The notes under the pieces were generated by a model, which saw only the letters and a list, made by a program, of their open reading frames with translations, searched no databases and was not told the origin of the DNA. A stretch of DNA of 64,000 nt from Malania oleifera. Taxonomy: Eukaryota; Streptophyta; Magnoliopsida; Santalales; Ximeniaceae. Below are positions 9,895 through 63,103 of this stretch, one piece after another. Where the stretch lies: positions 14,425,562 to 14,489,561 of the forward strand of contig NC_080418.1 of NCBI RefSeq assembly GCF_029873635.1. Reading direction: 5' to 3'. Positions within the stretch are counted from its first letter, which is position 1, and the number at the start of each line of letters is the position of its first letter. The position numbers and the translations under genes are program-made.

Positions 9895-10782
9895 TGTAGT
9901 GACCTCAATTTCTTAATAAGAATTATAACATAATAAATGGAGAAGTCAACCCGAACTTGTGGGTAACGAGGACACCTGTCAATCATAGCGGAAACCTAAG
10001 CAGCAGTAAAATAAAATCTCAATCATTCAACCATGAAACATAATACCAAAGTTATTTACATTCCCAAAATACTGTATTTATTTACAATTTTCCAAAAAGT
10101 CAAAATAACACTAGGATCGTACAACAAAAATCTCCTGATCCTAGTTCAACGTTTACCCTTTTAGTAGGGAAGCTAAACCCATTTAACGGCAGCCCTAACC
10201 CACTGGTCCCTCTGGGTTTCCTGAAAATCATTTAACATTCAGGAGTGAGACAATTCTCAGTAAGGGAAAATAAACTAAATACAGTTATGTGATAATATGA
10301 ATATATAAGGCACTTATACGTATACATTACATTTCATAACTCTGTAAACATTCATCATATCATACTGGATAATCATTTAATTTCATATTTGTTAATAAAT
10401 CATAACATACATAAAACATTTGTTATAACTGTAATACTGAAAATATACTCAGGATGAATAGCTAGCTGGTGTCATGTATTACCCCCCATGACGGGTTGTG
10501 CAGCCCGAAGGCGGGACTCAACAATGGCTGGCCAACCATTGCTGAGTCAAATATGTCTGTAAGTATGATGGGTCTGCCATACCCTGGTCCAAACTGCCAA
10601 GTGGACGTCCACACTCTACTGAAAGTCATATCGACTATCCATCTCCCACCCCCTCGTGGGGTGGTTAGCACTAATCTGATCATAAACATCTGATCTATAA
10701 GCTATGGTACCAAGCCCCTGAACTGAACTAAACTAACATCCGGGTTCTAATAACATATAATGCATGATCATATATAACATTG

Positions 10783-10972
10783 TTATGGCCTTGCGCCGAA
10801 CATATAGTAATTACGGCCTCGTGCCAAACATAACATAATTACGGCCTCGTGCCGACATAACATCATTACGGCCTCGTGCCGAACATAACATAATTACGAC
10901 CTCATGCCAACATAACATAATTAAGGCCTCGTGCCGACATAACATAATTACGTGACCTTGCGCCAGAATCAT
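10783..10972 (-). repeat. Minisatellite in solo LTR, about seven 27-29 bp units
   Basis: Units contain GGCCTCGTGCCG followed by AACATAACATAATTAC. A diverged parallel array occurs at 57511-57655 in the sister LTR. Confidence 0.8.
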
Positions 10973-11656
10973 TTCAGGTATATACATTCTAAAAATAAAT
11001 CAATTATCATGTATTCGTCAAAATTATCATAACATAACATATCTTTTTATAATACCTGAAAACGTACTTTGCTCATAAGATCTTTCATATCATAATACTT
11101 TCACGTAAAATAATATTCATGTCACACGTGCGCTGTATAAAATCATACTTCTTATTGTTCTAAAATCATAATTCTCTGGCATCTCATATATATACATATA
11201 CATTTCAACATAACAGTAGTATTTCCCAAACATACATTTCATCCATATTATACAAATATAACATATGTTTTTCTAAAAATAAATTTACTTATAAATAATA
11301 ATAATTTGCATGGAAAGTAACTTCTTTAGTTTATTCTCTTACCTAGCTACTAAGAAAGCCCCTAAAATATCTTAGCCTGACCCCTGTAAGATTTCCTGAT
11401 CAATACCCTGAAACTTAAAACTCCCAGTATTAAACTTCAGTATTTTCACATGTACATAATTTCCTATAACTATCGCAAGACCAAATTTGGCTTAGAAAGT
11501 CTTACCTCAACTCAAGGATGATTTCTAACTTCGTTTCCCAAACGATCCGCTCGGGCAAACTTGTAGAGAACTTCGCCAGGGGTGTCGTGGTAGCCTCAAA
11601 TCTTCGATCTGGCGACTGGCATGGCCAAAATCGAAGAGAGAAGTGAGAGAGAGACG

Positions 11657-11695
<39 letters not shown>

Positions 11696-11744
11696 TGTTA
11701 AAAGTGAATAAAAATCAGATTTTTAGCTATTTATAGGGCCAGAT

Positions 11745-12060
11745 TCGTCAACGAGACATGTCACCTCGTCGACGAGTCCTTTATTAAATTCATCGACGAG
11801 ACCCTGTATTCATCAACAAAATTCAGATCAGCCAAAAACCTCACTCGGTATTTTCTCGGCGACGAATCCCTGTATTCATCGATAAATTTTCTTCTACACT
11901 TGTAAAAACCTCGCTCGATATTTTCTTGGCAACGAATCCCTGTATTCGTCGATAAATTTTCTTCTACACTCGTCGACGAACCCCTGTATTCGTCGACGAA
12001 TCCAGGAAATCTCTTAAAATTTTTTTTTTATCCCCTAAATGCAATGTCATTGACGAAGTC
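11745..12060 (-). promoter_or_regulatory. Palindrome array in U3 of solo LTR
   Basis: About ten copies of words close to TTCGTCGACGAA, some within a duplicated segment of about 90 bp (11838-11970). Read on the minus strand the array precedes a TATA box (TATAAATA, near 11736) and a CT-rich leader (GA run 11660-11692 on plus). Confidence 0.65.
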
Positions 12061-12141
12061 TACGATCTCCTTCTGTTTTTGTTTCTATTTCTCTCCCTCT
12101 TAATATTCAAAGTCCATTTTTATTTGGGTTGTCATAGAAAG

Positions 12142-43827: not shown

Positions 43828-44490
43828 TGTTAGGACCGGAGGAGTCCATGGGTGGGCTTGATTCACATAGGTACACCAATTTGACCCAAAAGTTTAAGCC
43901 TATTATGTCTTGGACCCAACCATGTATATAAGTACCCATCATCCACTCTAATTTTCCAATGTGGGACCAGCTCACAAGTGAAATTCTCAACAATCTCCCC
44001 CTCACTTGTGAGTTCCAACTACACCTCCTTAAACAGAAATCGTCTCCCTTTTGGGAGTAAGCTCAATTCTCCAACAGTTGCTTAACTAGGCCTTACCACT
44101 GGCGCCTTACGTGTGTCGGATTGCATTCCTCGTGCCTCCGAACTAATCCTACCTCTCACGTCTTGACTTTATTTAGATCCATCCGCAGCCTAGATAATCC
44201 TTATTGGCCTCAGCCACAGACTTGGTCCTCCAACTGTTTGCACGTTAGAAGAATTAGCTTCACTTCTCGACTTTTTACGATATCACTCACCCAGAGTTAC
44301 GAACCGTCAACTCTGATACCACTTGTTAGGACTAGAGGAGCCCATGGGTGGGCTTGATACACATGGGTGAACACCAACTTGACCCAAAAGTTTAAGACAA
44401 TTGGGTCTTGGGACCAACTATGTATATAAGCACCTATCATCCACTTTAATTTTTCAATTTGGGACAGGCTTACAAGTGGAATTCTCAACA
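43828..44490 (-). mobile_element. Complete TRIM retrotransposon (target duplication AAAAT)
   Basis: 663 bp with two LTRs of 165 and 167 bp (43828-43992, 44324-44490), both TGTTAGGACY…TTCTCAACA on the plus strand. AAAAT flanks both sides (43823-43827, 44491-44495). On the minus strand the right-hand LTR is followed by AGTGGTATCAGAGTT, an initiator-Met primer site (44311-44323). A GGGGGAGAT purine tract precedes the other LTR. It has no coding capacity, so it depended on other elements. The LTRs differ by a moderate number of bases, so it is not recent. Confidence 0.92.
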
Positions 44491-55200: not shown

Positions 55201-55924
55201 AATGTGGATTCTTGATATTTTTCATTCCTTTCTTTTCTTTTCTTTTCTTTTCTTTTCTTTTTTTCAATATTTTCTGAGTTTGAAACAAAACCTTACGTAA
55301 CGTATCAAATGTAAAATTAAATATCCACCCCTCATTATCATCAATTTCAAAACTATTTTGAAATGTAAATTTTTTATTTTAAAAGAAAATAAATAACAAT
55401 TTGCAATTGATATCAACTATTAACTAGAGAAAGCTAGTAACTTTTATTCAATATTTTTCCTTTTATTATTCTTAAAATGCTATCCGTCTGCTGACAACTA
55501 GAAATGGAGAAAATGAATAGATTAGATTAGTAAATAATTGTACCCATATGAACAACACTAAATGTCTGCAATACATTATGATTTAGGTCAAATAATTCAT
55601 GATGGATTATGCAGATTATTAAATAAGAAAATGACAACCCATATCTAACTCAGTTAAGTAACAGATTAATGGTGGTTCAAATCAGATAATCAATGGTGGA
55701 TGACAGATAATCTGTCATTCCCATCTATAGTATAATTCTTTTTATCATAATATAGTAACTAAAGTTATTTTTTAAACTATAATTTGGTATATTATTAAAC
55801 ATTTAATAACTAATCAAAAAATTATAATTTTATTTTTATTTTTTAGATCATGAATTTTGGGTTTTAATTTAAATCATGAGAATTGAATATTTGGAGTTGA
55901 GTTTGAATGTGTCATCGAGTAGAT
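52229..55924 (+). other. AT-rich intergenic region
   Basis: No gene or RNA recognised. It has a dispersed AT-rich repeat copy at about 52765-52870 and a TTTCT microsatellite at 55226-55262. Homopolymer A and T runs lie at 54729-54757 and 55061-55090. Confidence 0.5.
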
Positions 55925-56201
55925 CTGGAGACACATATAGTAGTTAGCCCATTATTCACAGCCATCATGCAATGTATGCAGTTATTGATAGATAGAAGAA
56001 TCATTGTATACACTTTCGTGTACTATCTAAAGCCTTACCTATGTTTGGTAAGGATCATATTCATTCTGGTATTGTAATAGGTAAACTTGAAGGGGAAATA
56101 GATATCACTTCGGGTTTTGTTGATTTACTATGTGACGGTTTTATTGAAAAAGACCGAAGTTGCAATATTTATTTCACTCAATATTGGGTTTCGTTGTTAG
56201 G

Positions 56202-56399
56202 AAAAAATTAGGTCCTCCGGGAGGACGAACATGGTCCTCCCATCACACCCTACCATCCAATCAAAACATTCTAAATAATATATTGTACATGGTAGGATCC
56301 ATATACAATATGATGGAACCCATGATATGAAGTGTTTTCATTGGATGAAAAAGTTTGATGGGAGGATTATGCTTGTCCTCTCAGAGGACCAAATTTTTT
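56202..56399 (+). mobile_element. MITE copy 1 inside rbcL
   Basis: 198 bp with inverted ends AAAAAATTAGGTCCTCCGGG and AAAAAATTTGGTCCTCTGAG. Both ends also contain an internal hairpin (GGTCCTCCGGGAGGAC). The rbcL words GTTGTTAGG (left) and TTTGTCAGG (right) are an imperfect duplication of one rbcL site, so the element inserted after the transfer. Length and a duplication near 9 bp fit a Mutator-type MITE, but the superfamily is an inference. Confidence 0.8.
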
Positions 56400-56525
56400 C
56401 TCCTTTTTGTCAGGTGTTTTACTTGTAGCTTCGGGTAAAAAACTTAGGTCCTCCCTGTAACGACTCGAATTTTTAAATGAAATTTAAATAATAAAGAGAG
56501 AGGGAAATAGAAACAGAAACAGAAG

Positions 56526-56752
56526 GAGTTCGTTGACGACAATGCATTTGGGGAATAAAATAATTTTTAAGAGATTGCCTGAATGCGTCGACGAACACAG
56601 GGTTTCATCGACAAAGGCTTAAAGGATTTCGTCGACGAAGAAATACCGAGAGGGGGGTTTTGGAACTGACTGAATTTCGTCGACGAGGAGTGGATTTTGT
56701 TGACGAAATTTTTGAAGGACTTGTCGACGAAGGTCGGGCTCGTCGACGAATT
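56526..56752 (+). promoter_or_regulatory. Palindrome array upstream of LTR TATA box
   Basis: Eight TTCGTCGACGAA-like words near 56528, 56585, 56606, 56628, 56675, 56696, 56719 and 56738. Confidence 0.6.
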
Positions 56753-57510
56753 TTATTGTATATATATATATGAAAAATCAGATTTTTATTCATTTGAAGC
56801 TTCCTCTCCACTCACTCTCTCTCCTCTTCGGCTCTCTCACTCTCTCTCTTCGATTTTGGACTATATTTGCGCTGGATCGAAGATTTGAGGCTACCACGAC
56901 GCTCCTAGCGAAGTTCTCCACAAGTTTGTCGGAGCAGATCGTTGGGGAAATGAAGTTGAAACAGAGTTGAGGTAAGACTTTTTAAGACAAATTAGACTTT
57001 GTGGTAGTTATAGAAATCGATGTACGCATGAAAATACTGATGTTTAATACTGAAAATTTTGAGTTTCAGGGTATTGAGTAGGAAATCTTACGGGGATCAG
57101 GCTAGGAAATTTTAGAGGTTTTCTCAGTCACCAGGTAAGGGAATAAACTAAAGCAGTAATTTTTCTATGTGAATTATTATTAAATTGTGAGTAAATCTAT
57201 TTTCAGAAAAGCGTATGTTATATTGTTTATTATGAATGAAATGTATGATTGGGAAAATACTGCTATGATGATTAAAATGTATATGTATGTATGAGATGTC
57301 AGAAAATCATTATTTTAGAATATGAAGTATGACTTTTAACAGAGCATGTGTGGCATGAATATTATTTTACGTGAAATGGAGTATGATATGAATGCTTTTA
57401 CGAGTAAAACATATTTTCAGGTATTTTGGAAAGATGGGTTATGTTATATTGAGTTGACGAATATATGATAAACGGGTTATTTTCAAAATGTAAATACCTG
57501 AAACGTATCT

Positions 57511-57655
57511 GGCTCGAGGCCATATTTATGTTATTGGCACGAGGCCGTATCTACGATTTTGGCGCGAGGCCATATATTTATGTTATCGTCATAAGGCCGT
57601 ATTTACGATATTTGGCGCGAGGCCATATATTTATGTTATCGGCACGAGGCCGTGA
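57511..57655 (+). repeat. Minisatellite with GGCACGAGGCCGTA words
   Basis: Six alternating units of 25-32 bp, (G)GC-CGAGGCC(A/G)TAT with TATTTATGTTA or CTACGATTT spacers. It corresponds to 10783-10972. Confidence 0.8.
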
Positions 57656-58676
57656 TGATGTATGTATGTTCACGTATTATATGTTATTACAACCAGGATG
57701 TTAGTTTAGTTCAGTTCAGGGCTCGGTATCGTAGCTATATGTGTAGATCAGATATCTACTTCAGATTAGTGCTAACCGTCTCACGAGAGGATGGGAGATG
57801 GATAGTCGATGTGACTTTCAGTAGAGTGTGGATGTCCACCTGGCAGTCCGGACCAAGGTGTGGCGGCTCATTGTACTTACAGACATATTTGATTCGGCAG
57901 TGGTCGGCCAGCCATTGTCGGGTCCCACCTTCGAGCTGCACAACCTGTCATGGGGGGTAATACATGACATTAGCTAGCTATTCATTTTGGGTATATTTTC
58001 AGTACTACAGTTACAACAGATGTTTTTATGTATGTTATTACAGTGATAACAAATGCTTATGTATGTTATGATTTATTAATAAATATGAAAGTACATGATT
58101 ATCCAGTATGATATTATAATTATTTCTAAAGTTATGAAATGTACTATATTTGTATAAGCACTTTAAATGTTCATGTTGTCACACAACTGTATTTAGTTTA
58201 TTTTCCCTTACTGAAAAGTGTCTCACCCCCAACATTAATATATTTTTCAAGAAACCCAGATAAATCGGCGGGTCAAGGCCGCCGTTGAGTGAGTGGAGCT
58301 TCCCTACTAGAAGGGTAAGCGTTGAGCTAGAACTAGGAGATTTTGTTGCATAGTCCTAGAGTTATTTTGACTTTTGGAGGTTGTACATATAAACAATATA
58401 TTGATGTTAATAGAAAGCTCTAGTATTATGTTTTATAATTGGATGTTTGAGATTTTTATGTTTACTGCTGCTAGGTTCTCCGCTGTGTTTGACAGGTGTC
58501 CCCATTACCCACGAGTTCGGGTTGACCATTTGATCTATTATGTGACATTTTATATTAAGAAATTGAGGGACGTTACACTCCCACTACACCCTACCATATA
58601 ATAAAAACATTCCAAATAATAGATCTCACATGGTAGGAACGACATATAATCTTATGGGATCCAATATGTGACGACC

Positions 58677-60340
58677 CAAAAATTCCACTACTTTGATACC
58701 AATAAATATATAGCGGAAAATCTCCATAACTATTACTAGAATACTACAAAACATCCTTTATCACAATAAAAATCACAATATCGCAATGAAGTTCTGAACT
58801 CATAAAAAACATAAATAAAATAATAACAATTCTAACCAAGGGACCTTCTACCCCACCAACGCTAATGCTTCCACTACGCTACTCTGACTTCGGCTAATCT
58901 ACTCATGGCATCTAAAAAATGTTATATAATCATGGGGTGAGACATCTCTCAGTAAGAAGGAATAAATTATTATCAGTGTGTGGCAATATGAGTTTTAGTG
59001 TTCCAAATATATACATCCATTATTCAATTAAATTTAACTGACAAAACATGTAACTTGAACTCACACCTATATATATAACACATATTTCCTTTTTAAAACA
59101 CGTCGTATCGAACACATAATTCTCTGCAATAATTAAATCATCATACATATACATATACATAAGGAATTTTCCTCTGAATGGACGTCCATACATCATCATG
59201 TAATAACCCCACATGATCAAGTTGTGCGACTCAAAGGCGGGACTTAGCCATGGCTAGCCTACGACCAGGCTAAGTCAAATTGTACGCGTCTGTAGTATGA
59301 TTGGTCTACCGCAGCTTGGTCTGGACCTAGGGGCGGTCAACTCTCCGCAGGCCCAATCGACTGCCAATACCAACACCCTCCCCGAGTAGTGTGGTTGCAC
59401 TGACTATCATTATCATAGCTACGATACTGTGCTCCAAACATCAATGAAACAGTCCATCAGGGCTTTGCTACCATATAGTATAATTTATATAATATAGCTG
59501 TATAAAATCTGACATGTTCTCAATTTATTTTGTATAAAATCATATCATAGCATATGAGGCACACAACCATATGTACATCATATTTCGGCACACATCCATA
59601 TATATCATATCTCTATAATTTTTATACAACTTTTCTAAAAATCAGTATATACTCATGCCACACAATTTGAGTATTAAATCATAGTTTAATAATTGTCTGG
59701 AAGAATATACATACATTTCACTAAAAATAAAATGAATCATCTTCCTTTAGGGTTTAATCAACTCATAATAATAATAATAATAATAATCCAAAATATAATT
59801 TCCATATATCCAAATACCCCAAAAAAATATAAATCAATTTCTAAAACCACATGTTATAATTTAATCGATTAAATTTTAGAAAATACTGACATAATTTATT
59901 CCCCTTACCTTATCCCAGAGTGGTGCCTACGATGCCCAAACCACAAAATCTCCTCAATTAAAACATTGGTGATTGAAATTGGAACCTACTGATATTTTCC
60001 GTTCTTCAATTGACACACTTTTGCTAAGAAAATTGAAGAGAGAGAAAGAGATGGACGGAGGAGAGAAAGACAGAGAGTGATCGGCGAGAGAGAGAGAGAG
60101 AGAGAGAGCACGTTAGGGGGGTCTTCTGTGAATTCAATTGAAATTGAATTCCTGAAGGATCTTCAGGATCCTTCAAGTAACCTTTATATATATTATTATA
60201 ATATTATATTATATTATATTAATATGTTATATTATACTATTTAATTAATAATAATTTAATTATTTAAATTTTAATCAATTAATTCATTAATATATATTTA
60301 GGATCACACTTACGCACATATTATTTTTGGGGTCATTACA
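58677..60340 (-). mobile_element. Gypsy solo LTR in MITE copy 2 (target duplication CAATA)
   Basis: 1664 bp, plus-strand ends TGTGACGACCC and GGGGTCATTACA, flanked by CAATA (58672-58676 and 60341-60345). The minus strand carries the shared block (as GGGGTGAGACATCTCTCAG, 58935-58953) and a CT leader (GA run 60087-60108). It lacks the TTCGTCGACGAA array, so it is a different family from its neighbour. Confidence 0.9.
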
Positions 60341-60653
60341 CAATATATATGGAGTGTTTTCATTGGATGGAAAATGCCTGATAGGAGGACCACGTTGGTC
60401 CTCCCGGAGGATGTAATTTTTTCTTTTAACTTCAGGGGATATTCACATTTGGAATATGTCTGCTTTGACCGAGATCTTTGGAGATGATTCTGTACTATAG
60501 TTCGGTAGAGGAACTTTAGGACGCCCTTGGGGAGATGCGTCGGGTGTCATAGTTAATCGAGTAGCTCTAGAAGCATGTGTACAAGTAATGAGGGATGGGA
60601 TCTTGCTCGTGAGGGTAATGAAATTATTAGGGAGACTAGCAAGTGTGAGGACC

Positions 60654-61133
60654 GAAGGAGTCTATAGGCGTGCTTGATACATATGGGTGAACACCATTTT
60701 GACCCAAAAGCTTAAGCCTATTAGGTTTTAGACCCAACCATATATATAAGCACCCATTATCCACTCAAATTTTTCAATGTGGAACAAAATCACAAGTGAA
60801 ATTCTCAACAATCTCTCCCTCACTTGTGAGTTCCAACTACTCCCCCTTGAATAGAAATCGTCTTCCTTATGGGAGTAAGCTCAATTCTCCAATAGTTGCT
60901 TAAGTGGGCCTTACTAGTGCACCTTACATGCCTCAAATTGCATTTCACTTGCTTCCGAACCAATCCTACCTCCCACGTATTAACCATATTCAGATCCATC
61001 CTAGACCTAGATGATCCTTATTAGCCTTTGTCACACACTTGGTCCTCCAACTGTTGTCAGGAGAATTAACTTCACATCTCGACTTTATGATGTCAGTCAC
61101 CCAGAGTTACGAACCGTTGACTTTGGTACCACT
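60654..61133 (-). mobile_element. Partial TRIM, same family as 43828-44490
   Basis: One LTR (60654-60810, TGTGAGGACC…TTCTCAACA) and the internal region up to the minus-strand primer site (AGTGGTACCAAAGTC) are present. Where the second LTR would begin, the 326-bp tandem pair begins instead. It abuts the rbcL fragment at AGCAAG, so it probably inserted into it. Fossil. Confidence 0.8.
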
Positions 61134-61780
61134 TATTAGGAAACCTAGACAAAAACAGAGATAAAAGCACACACAAAAGAACATTGAGATATACATGGTT
61201 CGGCTAAATTTAGCCTATGTCCATGGGAGAGATAGCTAGTATTTTCCGAAAAATACAGAGAAGGAGGAGGAGAGAAATTCTCACTCAAAAACTCTCTCAA
61301 CTCTCACAGATCTCTCTACCTTCCCATGTACTTCCCATAACTCTATTATAATATGATGTTCTTTTACATTCACAACACACACACACACACATACACCCTT
61401 ATTTATACACCAAGGAGTATTAACTACTCAAGAAAACTCCCACAATCACATTTGAATCTTGTTGGGAAATCTGGACAAAAATAGAGATAAAAACACACAC
61501 AAAAGAACACTGAGATATACGTGGTTTGGCTAAATTCAGCCTACGTCCACGGGAGAGATAGCTAGTATTTTCTGAAAAATACAAGGGAGAAGGAGGAAGA
61601 GATAAATTCTCACTCAAAAACTCTCTTAACTCTTATAGCTCTCTCTGCCTTCCCACTTACTTCCCACAACTCTGCTATAATCTGATGTTCTTTTACATTC
61701 ACAACACACACACACACCTATTTATACACCAAGAAGTATTAACTACTCAAGAAAATTCCCTCAATCACATTTGAATAATT
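61134..61780 (+). repeat. Two tandem copies of a 326-bp unit
   Basis: Copies begin at 61134 (TATTAGGAAACCTAGAC) and 61460 (TGTTGGGAAATCTGGAC) and stay alike throughout. Shared parts are ATACGTGGTTTGGCTAAATT-, CCACGGGAGAGATAGCTAG, a (CA)n run and TTTATACACCAAG-AGTATTAAC. The wording resembles LTRs of small plant elements in reverse, perhaps two LTRs left side by side. A 23-bp ending (TTCC-CAATCACATTTGAATAA) is itself doubled at 61760-61800. Confidence 0.75.
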
Positions 61781-62566
61781 CCACAATCACATTTGAATAA
61801 TGCCTATTGGTTTTCAAGCTGGTACCAGTCAGGGTCCGTGGAGGAAAAATAGCAACAATGCGAGCCAGTGATAGGAAATGGGGCACCAAGTTCCTTAGGG
61901 AAATCCATCACGCCCTCCTTGTCCCAGGTGTTATCAGAAGCATTGGGGTGAATGCCGGGTTAAAATAATTGTTTGTTGCCGATGTGGTAGACCTGGCTAT
62001 ATAACAAGAGACTGTTGTGCACTGCCTAGTGATGCACCCACACCTAATTAATTTCGAGGACACAATCAGGCACCTTGAGGTGGCTACTAGAGGAACACCG
62101 CCCAGGTGCGGGTGTATTCGCTTACGCCAGGTGATGCGGAGGAAGGTTGTGATGTGGTGACAGGTACTATTTTAATACTGTCACATAAAGCTATTGTATT
62201 TTTTGATTCAAGGGCAACACATTCATTTATACCTCGGGAGTTTATCAAATCATGTGGAGTAGAAGCTCGGCTATTAGATGCCAATCTATTGGTGGCTACA
62301 CCGACAGGAACCGTAGTGGTATGTGTGAGAGAACTTAAAGATTATCCAATTAGTATTTAGGGAAGGACACTGCCTGCTAATTTGGTGGTCCTTGACATGC
62401 ATGGATTTGAGGTCATTTTGGGGATGGACTAGCTAGCTTCCAGTTATGCTAGTATATGCCGTTGGTTGAGTTCGCATATAATAATAGCTATCAGGACAGC
62501 ATCAAGATGACACCTTATGAGACATTGTATGGTAGGAGGTGTCGTTCTCCACTATACTGAGAGGAA

Positions 62567-63103
62567 ATGGGCGAGAGGCGAGTTTTGGGACAAGAATTAG
62601 TGCAGAAGGCATACGATAAAGTCCGAGTAATTAAAGACAAGATTAGTGCAGCTCAAGGTCGGCAGAAAAGCTATGCAGATACTCGCCACTGGAAGTTAGA
62701 GTATGATGTGAGAGATCAGGTGTTTTTGAAAGTGGCATCACTGAGAGGAATTGTGAGGTTTGAGAGGAAGGGTAAGCTGAGCCTTAAGTTTATTGGTTTA
62801 TTCGAGATGCTTGAGAGAGTGGGTTCAATTGCCTACAGGCTAGGGTCACCACTAGCACTATCTAGGATACACAAAATATTTCATGTTTCCATGTTGAGGA
62901 AATACATCTTAGATCCTTCCCATGTGATCAGTTACAAGGAAATAGAGCTCAGAGATACACTAGCATATGAGGAAACACCAGTACAAATTCTAGACAAAAA
63001 AGAACAAGAGTTACGTACTAAAAGAATTCCATTAGTAAAAATCCTGTGGAGGAATCACGCAGTGGAGGATGCCTCATGGGAGCTAGAGGAGGAGATACGA
63101 TAG
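62567..63103 (+). pseudogene. Integrase C-terminal and chromodomain-like region of relic D
   Basis: Reads MGERRVLGQELVQKAYDKVR-, then 'SYADTRHWKLEYDVRDQVFL', 'GSPLALSRIHKIFHVSMLRK' and the chromodomain-like end 'VKILWRNHAVEDASWELEEE'. It matches 14350-14836 and 21460-21880 of the other Tekay-like elements and is the longest unbroken of the three. This is a remnant of a larger integrase. Confidence 0.7.

Follow-up and report, generated by a model that had tools for sequence, protein, structure and literature searches.

A split rbcL fragment in a Malania oleifera chromosome: a very probable NUPT with later MITE and solo-LTR layers and a putative TRIM

How did half a kilobase of rbcL come to lie in three parts in a plant chromosome, and in what order did the transposable elements (TEs) around and between those parts arrive? 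We addressed this question in a 64,000-nucleotide stretch of Malania oleifera DNA, here called the window, which covers 14.43–14.49 Mb on contig C2 of a 1.49-Gb, 510-contig assembly. The rbcL locus lies at 14.48 Mb of this contig (G000:C2) with dispersed repeats around it, and is thus plastid-homologous sequence in a nuclear chromosome, as expected of a NUPT. We consider it very probable that the locus is a NUPT overlain by later MITE and solo-LTR layers, with a putative TRIM at its right end, arranged as follows (coordinates are those of the window):

55573–55944, plus strand: left-hand dispersed repeat, partial and non-autonomous; DNA matches at other places (70–81%), ending where rbcL starts
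55945–56200, plus strand: rbcL piece 1, residues about 289–372, pseudogene; translation, protein and DNA matches
56201–56404, plus strand: MITE 1, Mutator-like, with 79-nt TIR arms; 9-bp flanks CGTTGTTAG and TTTTGTCAG, 6/9 alike
56405–56435, plus strand: rbcL piece 2, about residues 370–380; DNA match to other nuclear copies
56436–60427, plus strand: MITE 2, of the MITE 1 family, interrupted by two solo LTRs; 9-bp flanks AGCTTCGGG and AACTTCAGG, 7/9 alike
56456–58577, plus strand: solo LTR-A, Ty3/gypsy chromodomain lineage; target-site duplication (TSD) CTCCC
58667–60340, minus strand: solo LTR-B, probable distant relative of LTR-A, oppositely oriented; TSD CAATA
60428–60643, plus strand: rbcL piece 3, about residues 377–445, with a small frame-breaking deletion; translation, protein and DNA matches
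60644–61131, plus strand: putative TRIM, 5' LTR and interior, 3' LTR not in place; 83% to the TRIM at 43841–44331 of the window

Identity and edges of the rbcL pieces

An initial annotation had described three ordered rbcL pieces covering residues of about 300–450, and protein and DNA matches confirmed this description over residues ~289 to ~445. Both outer pieces, on which it depended, match Rubisco large chains: piece 1 over residues 289–370 (best E 9.8e-34; hits to 67 distinct PDB sequences with E <= 0.001) and piece 3 over residues 379–429 (best E 3.3e-22; 65 PDB sequences), the reach of the latter being extended to about residue 445 by DNA comparison with other nuclear rbcL copies. The middle piece of 31 bp is 79–86% like the expected rbcL stretch over 29–35 bp in other nuclear copies (best E 5e-4), with one further, weak match at 72%. 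Across each joint a 9-bp stretch of rbcL is repeated, as expected of a Mutator-type target duplication. The reading frame of piece 1 (55927–56201) contains two stops and that of piece 3 (from 60417) contains one.

The outer edges of the fragment needed small corrections. A query of 55600–55960, which included 16 bp of rbcL, matched the left-hand repeat at no fewer than 39 further places at 70–81% (best 40 of 515 candidates scored); 17 of these 39 matches end at 55943 or 55944 and none passes 55944, which moves the left edge of rbcL from the annotated 55925 to 55945. When the left junction itself was used as query (55925–56201), the junction was found once in the genome, and seven other places start at query base 28 or later. 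Five copies of the left-hand repeat match one another over 621–751 columns, and ends like TAGACCT...AGGTCTA were read in four of the five; we take the repeat to be a non-autonomous element, putatively of hAT type. No further part of it was found between 53000 and 64000 of the window. We also considered 55914–55944, which is similar to a later part of rbcL, as a rearranged second plastid piece, and rejected this candidate because the left-hand repeat copies have similar letters there.

On the right, the putative TRIM adjoins the end of rbcL as described, and its LTR begins TGTGAGGACC at 60644, which places the last rbcL base at 60643 instead of 60653; under permissive scoring, some rbcL alignments drift past this edge to 60656–60711. 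The 129 bases of rbcL expected after piece 3 had no match in the window except an 18-bp one (E 0.97), and with them the insertion has lost its original right edge. What looks like a complete copy of the same TRIM family lies at 43828–44490, having an LTR of about 165 bp at either end and AAAAT on both flanks as judged by eye. The copy at 60644 consists of the 5' LTR and interior only, followed by two tandem repeats at the place expected for the 3' LTR. These tandem copies (61132–61776) are about 325 bp long and 87% alike, start TATTAGGAAACC and TGTTGGGAAATC, and may be the LTRs of a different TRIM subtype that were joined through recombination. Further along, positions 62091–63100 hold decayed Ty3/gypsy fragments, a retropepsin-like RVP_2 frame (62091–62357) and an integrase-end SH3 frame (62561–63100), which are too close together to belong to an intact element.

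Decay of the fragment and rbcL elsewhere in the genome

A search with PF00016 returned 34 rows, 33 of them over the cut-off, which fell into 29 places once rows within 20 kb had been merged by hand. DNA searches added six places, which brings the total to at least 35 rbcL places, differing in extent. No intact rbcL was seen among these 35, no PF00016 row spanned the whole model without stops, and the plastome is apparently absent from the assembly. The present locus is the only one of the 35 for which a split of more than 1 kb was seen. Stop-free rbcL fragments occur at L012 (G000:C12:83216762-83217091) and L011 (G000:C8:84904017-84904322), with open frames of 282 and 190 aa, and are perhaps much younger transfers than the rbcL of the window.

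As a proxy for the plastid sequence we used, in place of a plastome, the majority over 20 other decayed nuclear rbcL loci (L009 and 19 more, many partial), which form part of the rbcL-bearing loci fetched and give a mean depth of 7.1 and a minimum of 1. The three pieces differ from this majority of nuclear copies at 58 of 467 sites (Jukes-Cantor 0.136), and the 19 other sufficiently long loci differ from it by 2.0% to 20.3%. With the same reference, 33 of the 58 changes are C>T or G>A, and transitions affect 12 of 42 CpG positions versus 21 of 166 other C/G positions (p 0.017). Across codon positions, change in pieces 1 and 3 is flat (52 changes in 441 sites; p 0.48). Neutral decay with an excess of C-to-T and G-to-A change is what a NUPT should display, and the pattern is that expected of unselected, methylated nuclear DNA. 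We rejected a functional or intron-split nuclear rbcL on account of the stops, the frame break and the flat codon-position change.

Substitution rates are in the region of 7e-9 per site per year, at which the Jukes-Cantor distance of 0.136 would correspond to roughly 19 million years, as an order of magnitude only. In the accessible text of a survey of 30 angiosperms, NUPT K values were below 0.38 in all cases (PMC12572781), so the divergence of the present locus is not extreme.

MITEs and solo LTRs within the fragment

Two MITEs interrupt rbcL, as the initial annotation had it, MITE 1 between pieces 1 and 2 and MITE 2 between pieces 2 and 3. The 79-nt arms of MITE 1 are 77% complementary, and the two elements are 78–79% alike over two longer blocks, some 20 bp of the terminal hairpin being present in MITE 1 and missing from MITE 2. 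The family is dispersed genome-wide, with at least 64 match rows (best 40 of 103 candidates scored), including 2 rows of the element itself. Mutator-type MITEs have long arms and 9-bp duplications. The long TIRs, small size and dispersed family found here accord with a Mutator-like MITE, and a 9-bp target-site duplication was found both in the rbcL overlaps of the two MITEs and in the flanks of sister copies.

For the sister copies, 30 loci gave 17 lines past the filter, from which 14 near-complete copies were left after removal of 2 self matches and 1 repeat place. With 0–4 and 0–3 bp of slack allowed in the scoring, the 9-bp flanks were alike at 7/9 or more in 7 of the 14 copies versus 5 of 180 mismatched flank pairs, and at 8/9 in 3 of 14 versus 0 of 180. 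The flanks of the other 7 of 14 copies fell below 7/9, and two of the seven positive copies (L055 and L060) are probably duplicates. The flanks of MITE 1 agree at only 6/9, which has a chance of 1.9% for a random pair, and the corresponding chance for MITE 2 (7/9) is 0.3%. The 3' ends of the MITEs were placed with 2–4 bp of freedom.

MITE 2 was said to hold two solo LTRs, and it does: LTR-A and LTR-B each start with TG and end with CA, carry an identical 5-bp TSD on both sides and have no interior. For the LTR-A family we obtained 21,357 first-look candidates; among the 40 scored, the best full-span matches reach 85% and partial matches up to 87% over 1.5 kb or more. Four same-strand pairs of LTRs of this family, about 7 kb apart, occur among the matches listed. 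Upstream of one sister LTR (L079) lie two frames; the first contains SH3_Tf2-1 and chromo domains, by which we assign LTR-A to the chromodomain Ty3/gypsy lineage, and the other had no Pfam match. Another copy of the LTR-A family, about 77–79% like the solo LTR, lies on the minus strand at 9903–12119 of the window. Over 603 nt, LTR-B in reverse complement is 59% similar to LTR-A (E 5e-16), and it is probably a relative of LTR-A in the opposite direction.

Two comparisons touch on the timing of these insertions. LTR-A differs by 13–15% from its nearest long matches among the 40 scored, a divergence split between two branches, which fits an arrival later than that of rbcL. Mismatches between duplication copies are found at 5 of 18 sites for the MITEs and 0 of 10 for the LTRs, a difference that agrees with the insertion order set out below and is not significant (p 0.13).

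Origin, insertion order and precedents

We propose that a ~0.5-kb rbcL piece (residues ~289–445) came to lie in the chromosome joined to an older-looking dispersed repeat and that it has no function and decayed neutrally, mainly through methylation-type C-to-T change. Two related Mutator-type MITEs then inserted into rbcL about 30 bp apart, each duplicating 9 bp of it, and two Ty3/gypsy-type retrotransposons inserted into MITE 2 in opposite directions. Recombination between the two LTRs of each retrotransposon would later have removed its interior and left behind a solo LTR with matching 5-bp flanks; it is because these flanks match that we infer recombination within one element. The TRIM at the right end may have inserted there or have been placed by a rearrangement, the remaining plastid DNA on the right having gone from the window. 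The annotated order of plastid transfer, then MITEs, then collapsed gypsy LTRs stood in its main part: rbcL preceded both MITEs, MITE 2 preceded both LTRs, as their nesting dictates, and both LTRs are solo, their 5-bp duplications being intact. The gypsy label is firm for LTR-A, but LTR-B would bear it only through its distant likeness to LTR-A.

The rbcL piece might instead have reached the nucleus within mitochondrial DNA that carried earlier plastid DNA, in which case it would be a NUMT with the later TE history unchanged. In plants, rbcL commonly passes from plastids to mitochondria, and such a route would suit the shortness of the fragment and its neighbours, which are repeats and not other plastid genes. 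However, the 35 or more rbcL places, which differ in extent, are what repeated plastid transfer would produce, and we consider the detour through the mitochondrion unlikely. Capture of rbcL by the left-hand repeat, as a transduplicate that spread with the repeat, is very improbable. The repeat does directly adjoin the start of rbcL at 55944/55945, but none of its 39 other matches crosses this point (the query included just 16 bp of rbcL), and in each of the five copies that were read the repeat's own sequence continues. Moreover, the seven other rbcL places start too far into the junction query for the junction to be common to any of them, and with the repeat's further part missing no element encloses rbcL. 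We give practically no credence to independent arrivals of the three pieces from the plastid or to a nuclear rbcL gene with introns, which the 4 kb between pieces 2 and 3 might suggest: the pieces are ordered on one strand with 9-bp overlaps at both joints, unexpected for independent transfers, and the stops and flat codon-position change argue against a gene.

We therefore favour a NUPT, with a presumably direct plastid origin and later insertions. Two of these insertions are MITEs with different target duplications, separated by 31 bp within a half-kilobase segment of plastid DNA in a 1.49-Gb genome, and this pairing of sister MITEs in so short a NUPT is a detail worth a wider look. Newly arrived, unmethylated plastid DNA might be a preferred landing ground for this Mutator-type MITE family, an idea that we regard as a long shot; if true, NUPTs would be traps datable by their inserts. 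More generally, the locus is a base-level example of the break-up of plastid DNA in the large nuclear genome of a plant; its four later insertions can be recognized by their duplications and, in part, put in order by nesting. Should relatives have some of the layers and not others, it could serve as a single locus for a comparative timing study; on its own it changes no understanding. The relative clock claimed for this stack of insertions is real but weak, since the solo LTRs have no partner LTR for dating, and its principle is not new, retrotransposons having already served as an age clue for a maize NUMT in the accessible text of PMC4632043.

No paper joining rbcL, NUPT and solo LTR was found in the open-licence library searched, and wider searches of it gave PMC7037861 and PMC4632043, as far as their accessible text goes, as the closest precedents. 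That TEs interrupt organelle DNA and that such insertions hint at its age have both been published before, and the locus is ordinary in kind and clean. TE insertion plays a significant part in fragmenting NUPTs and NUMTs according to the accessible part of PMC7037861, and the present locus resembles the split NUPTs described there in its co-linear plastid pieces parted by transposons; what differs here is that the steps can be read at base level from target duplications and that the inserts include two MITEs from a single family. The maize chromosome 9L NUMT, in the portion of PMC4632043 available, carries four Ty3/gypsy insertions with 5–6 bp duplications of mitochondrial DNA, and these insertions give some indication of its age. 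The likeness lies in gypsy elements flanked by short duplications of organelle DNA that offer an age clue; however, the maize elements are recent insertions whose two LTRs are identical, whereas our locus has solo LTRs that lie within a MITE, and its host DNA is short and derived from the plastid. In rice, a 190-kb mitochondrial fragment is reported to have been followed by the integration of four retrotransposons (title of Ueda et al., 2005, in the reference list of PMC4632043). That case shares with ours nuclear organelle DNA bearing four later insertions, but it is mitochondrial and large and its insertions are all retrotransposons, unlike those described here.
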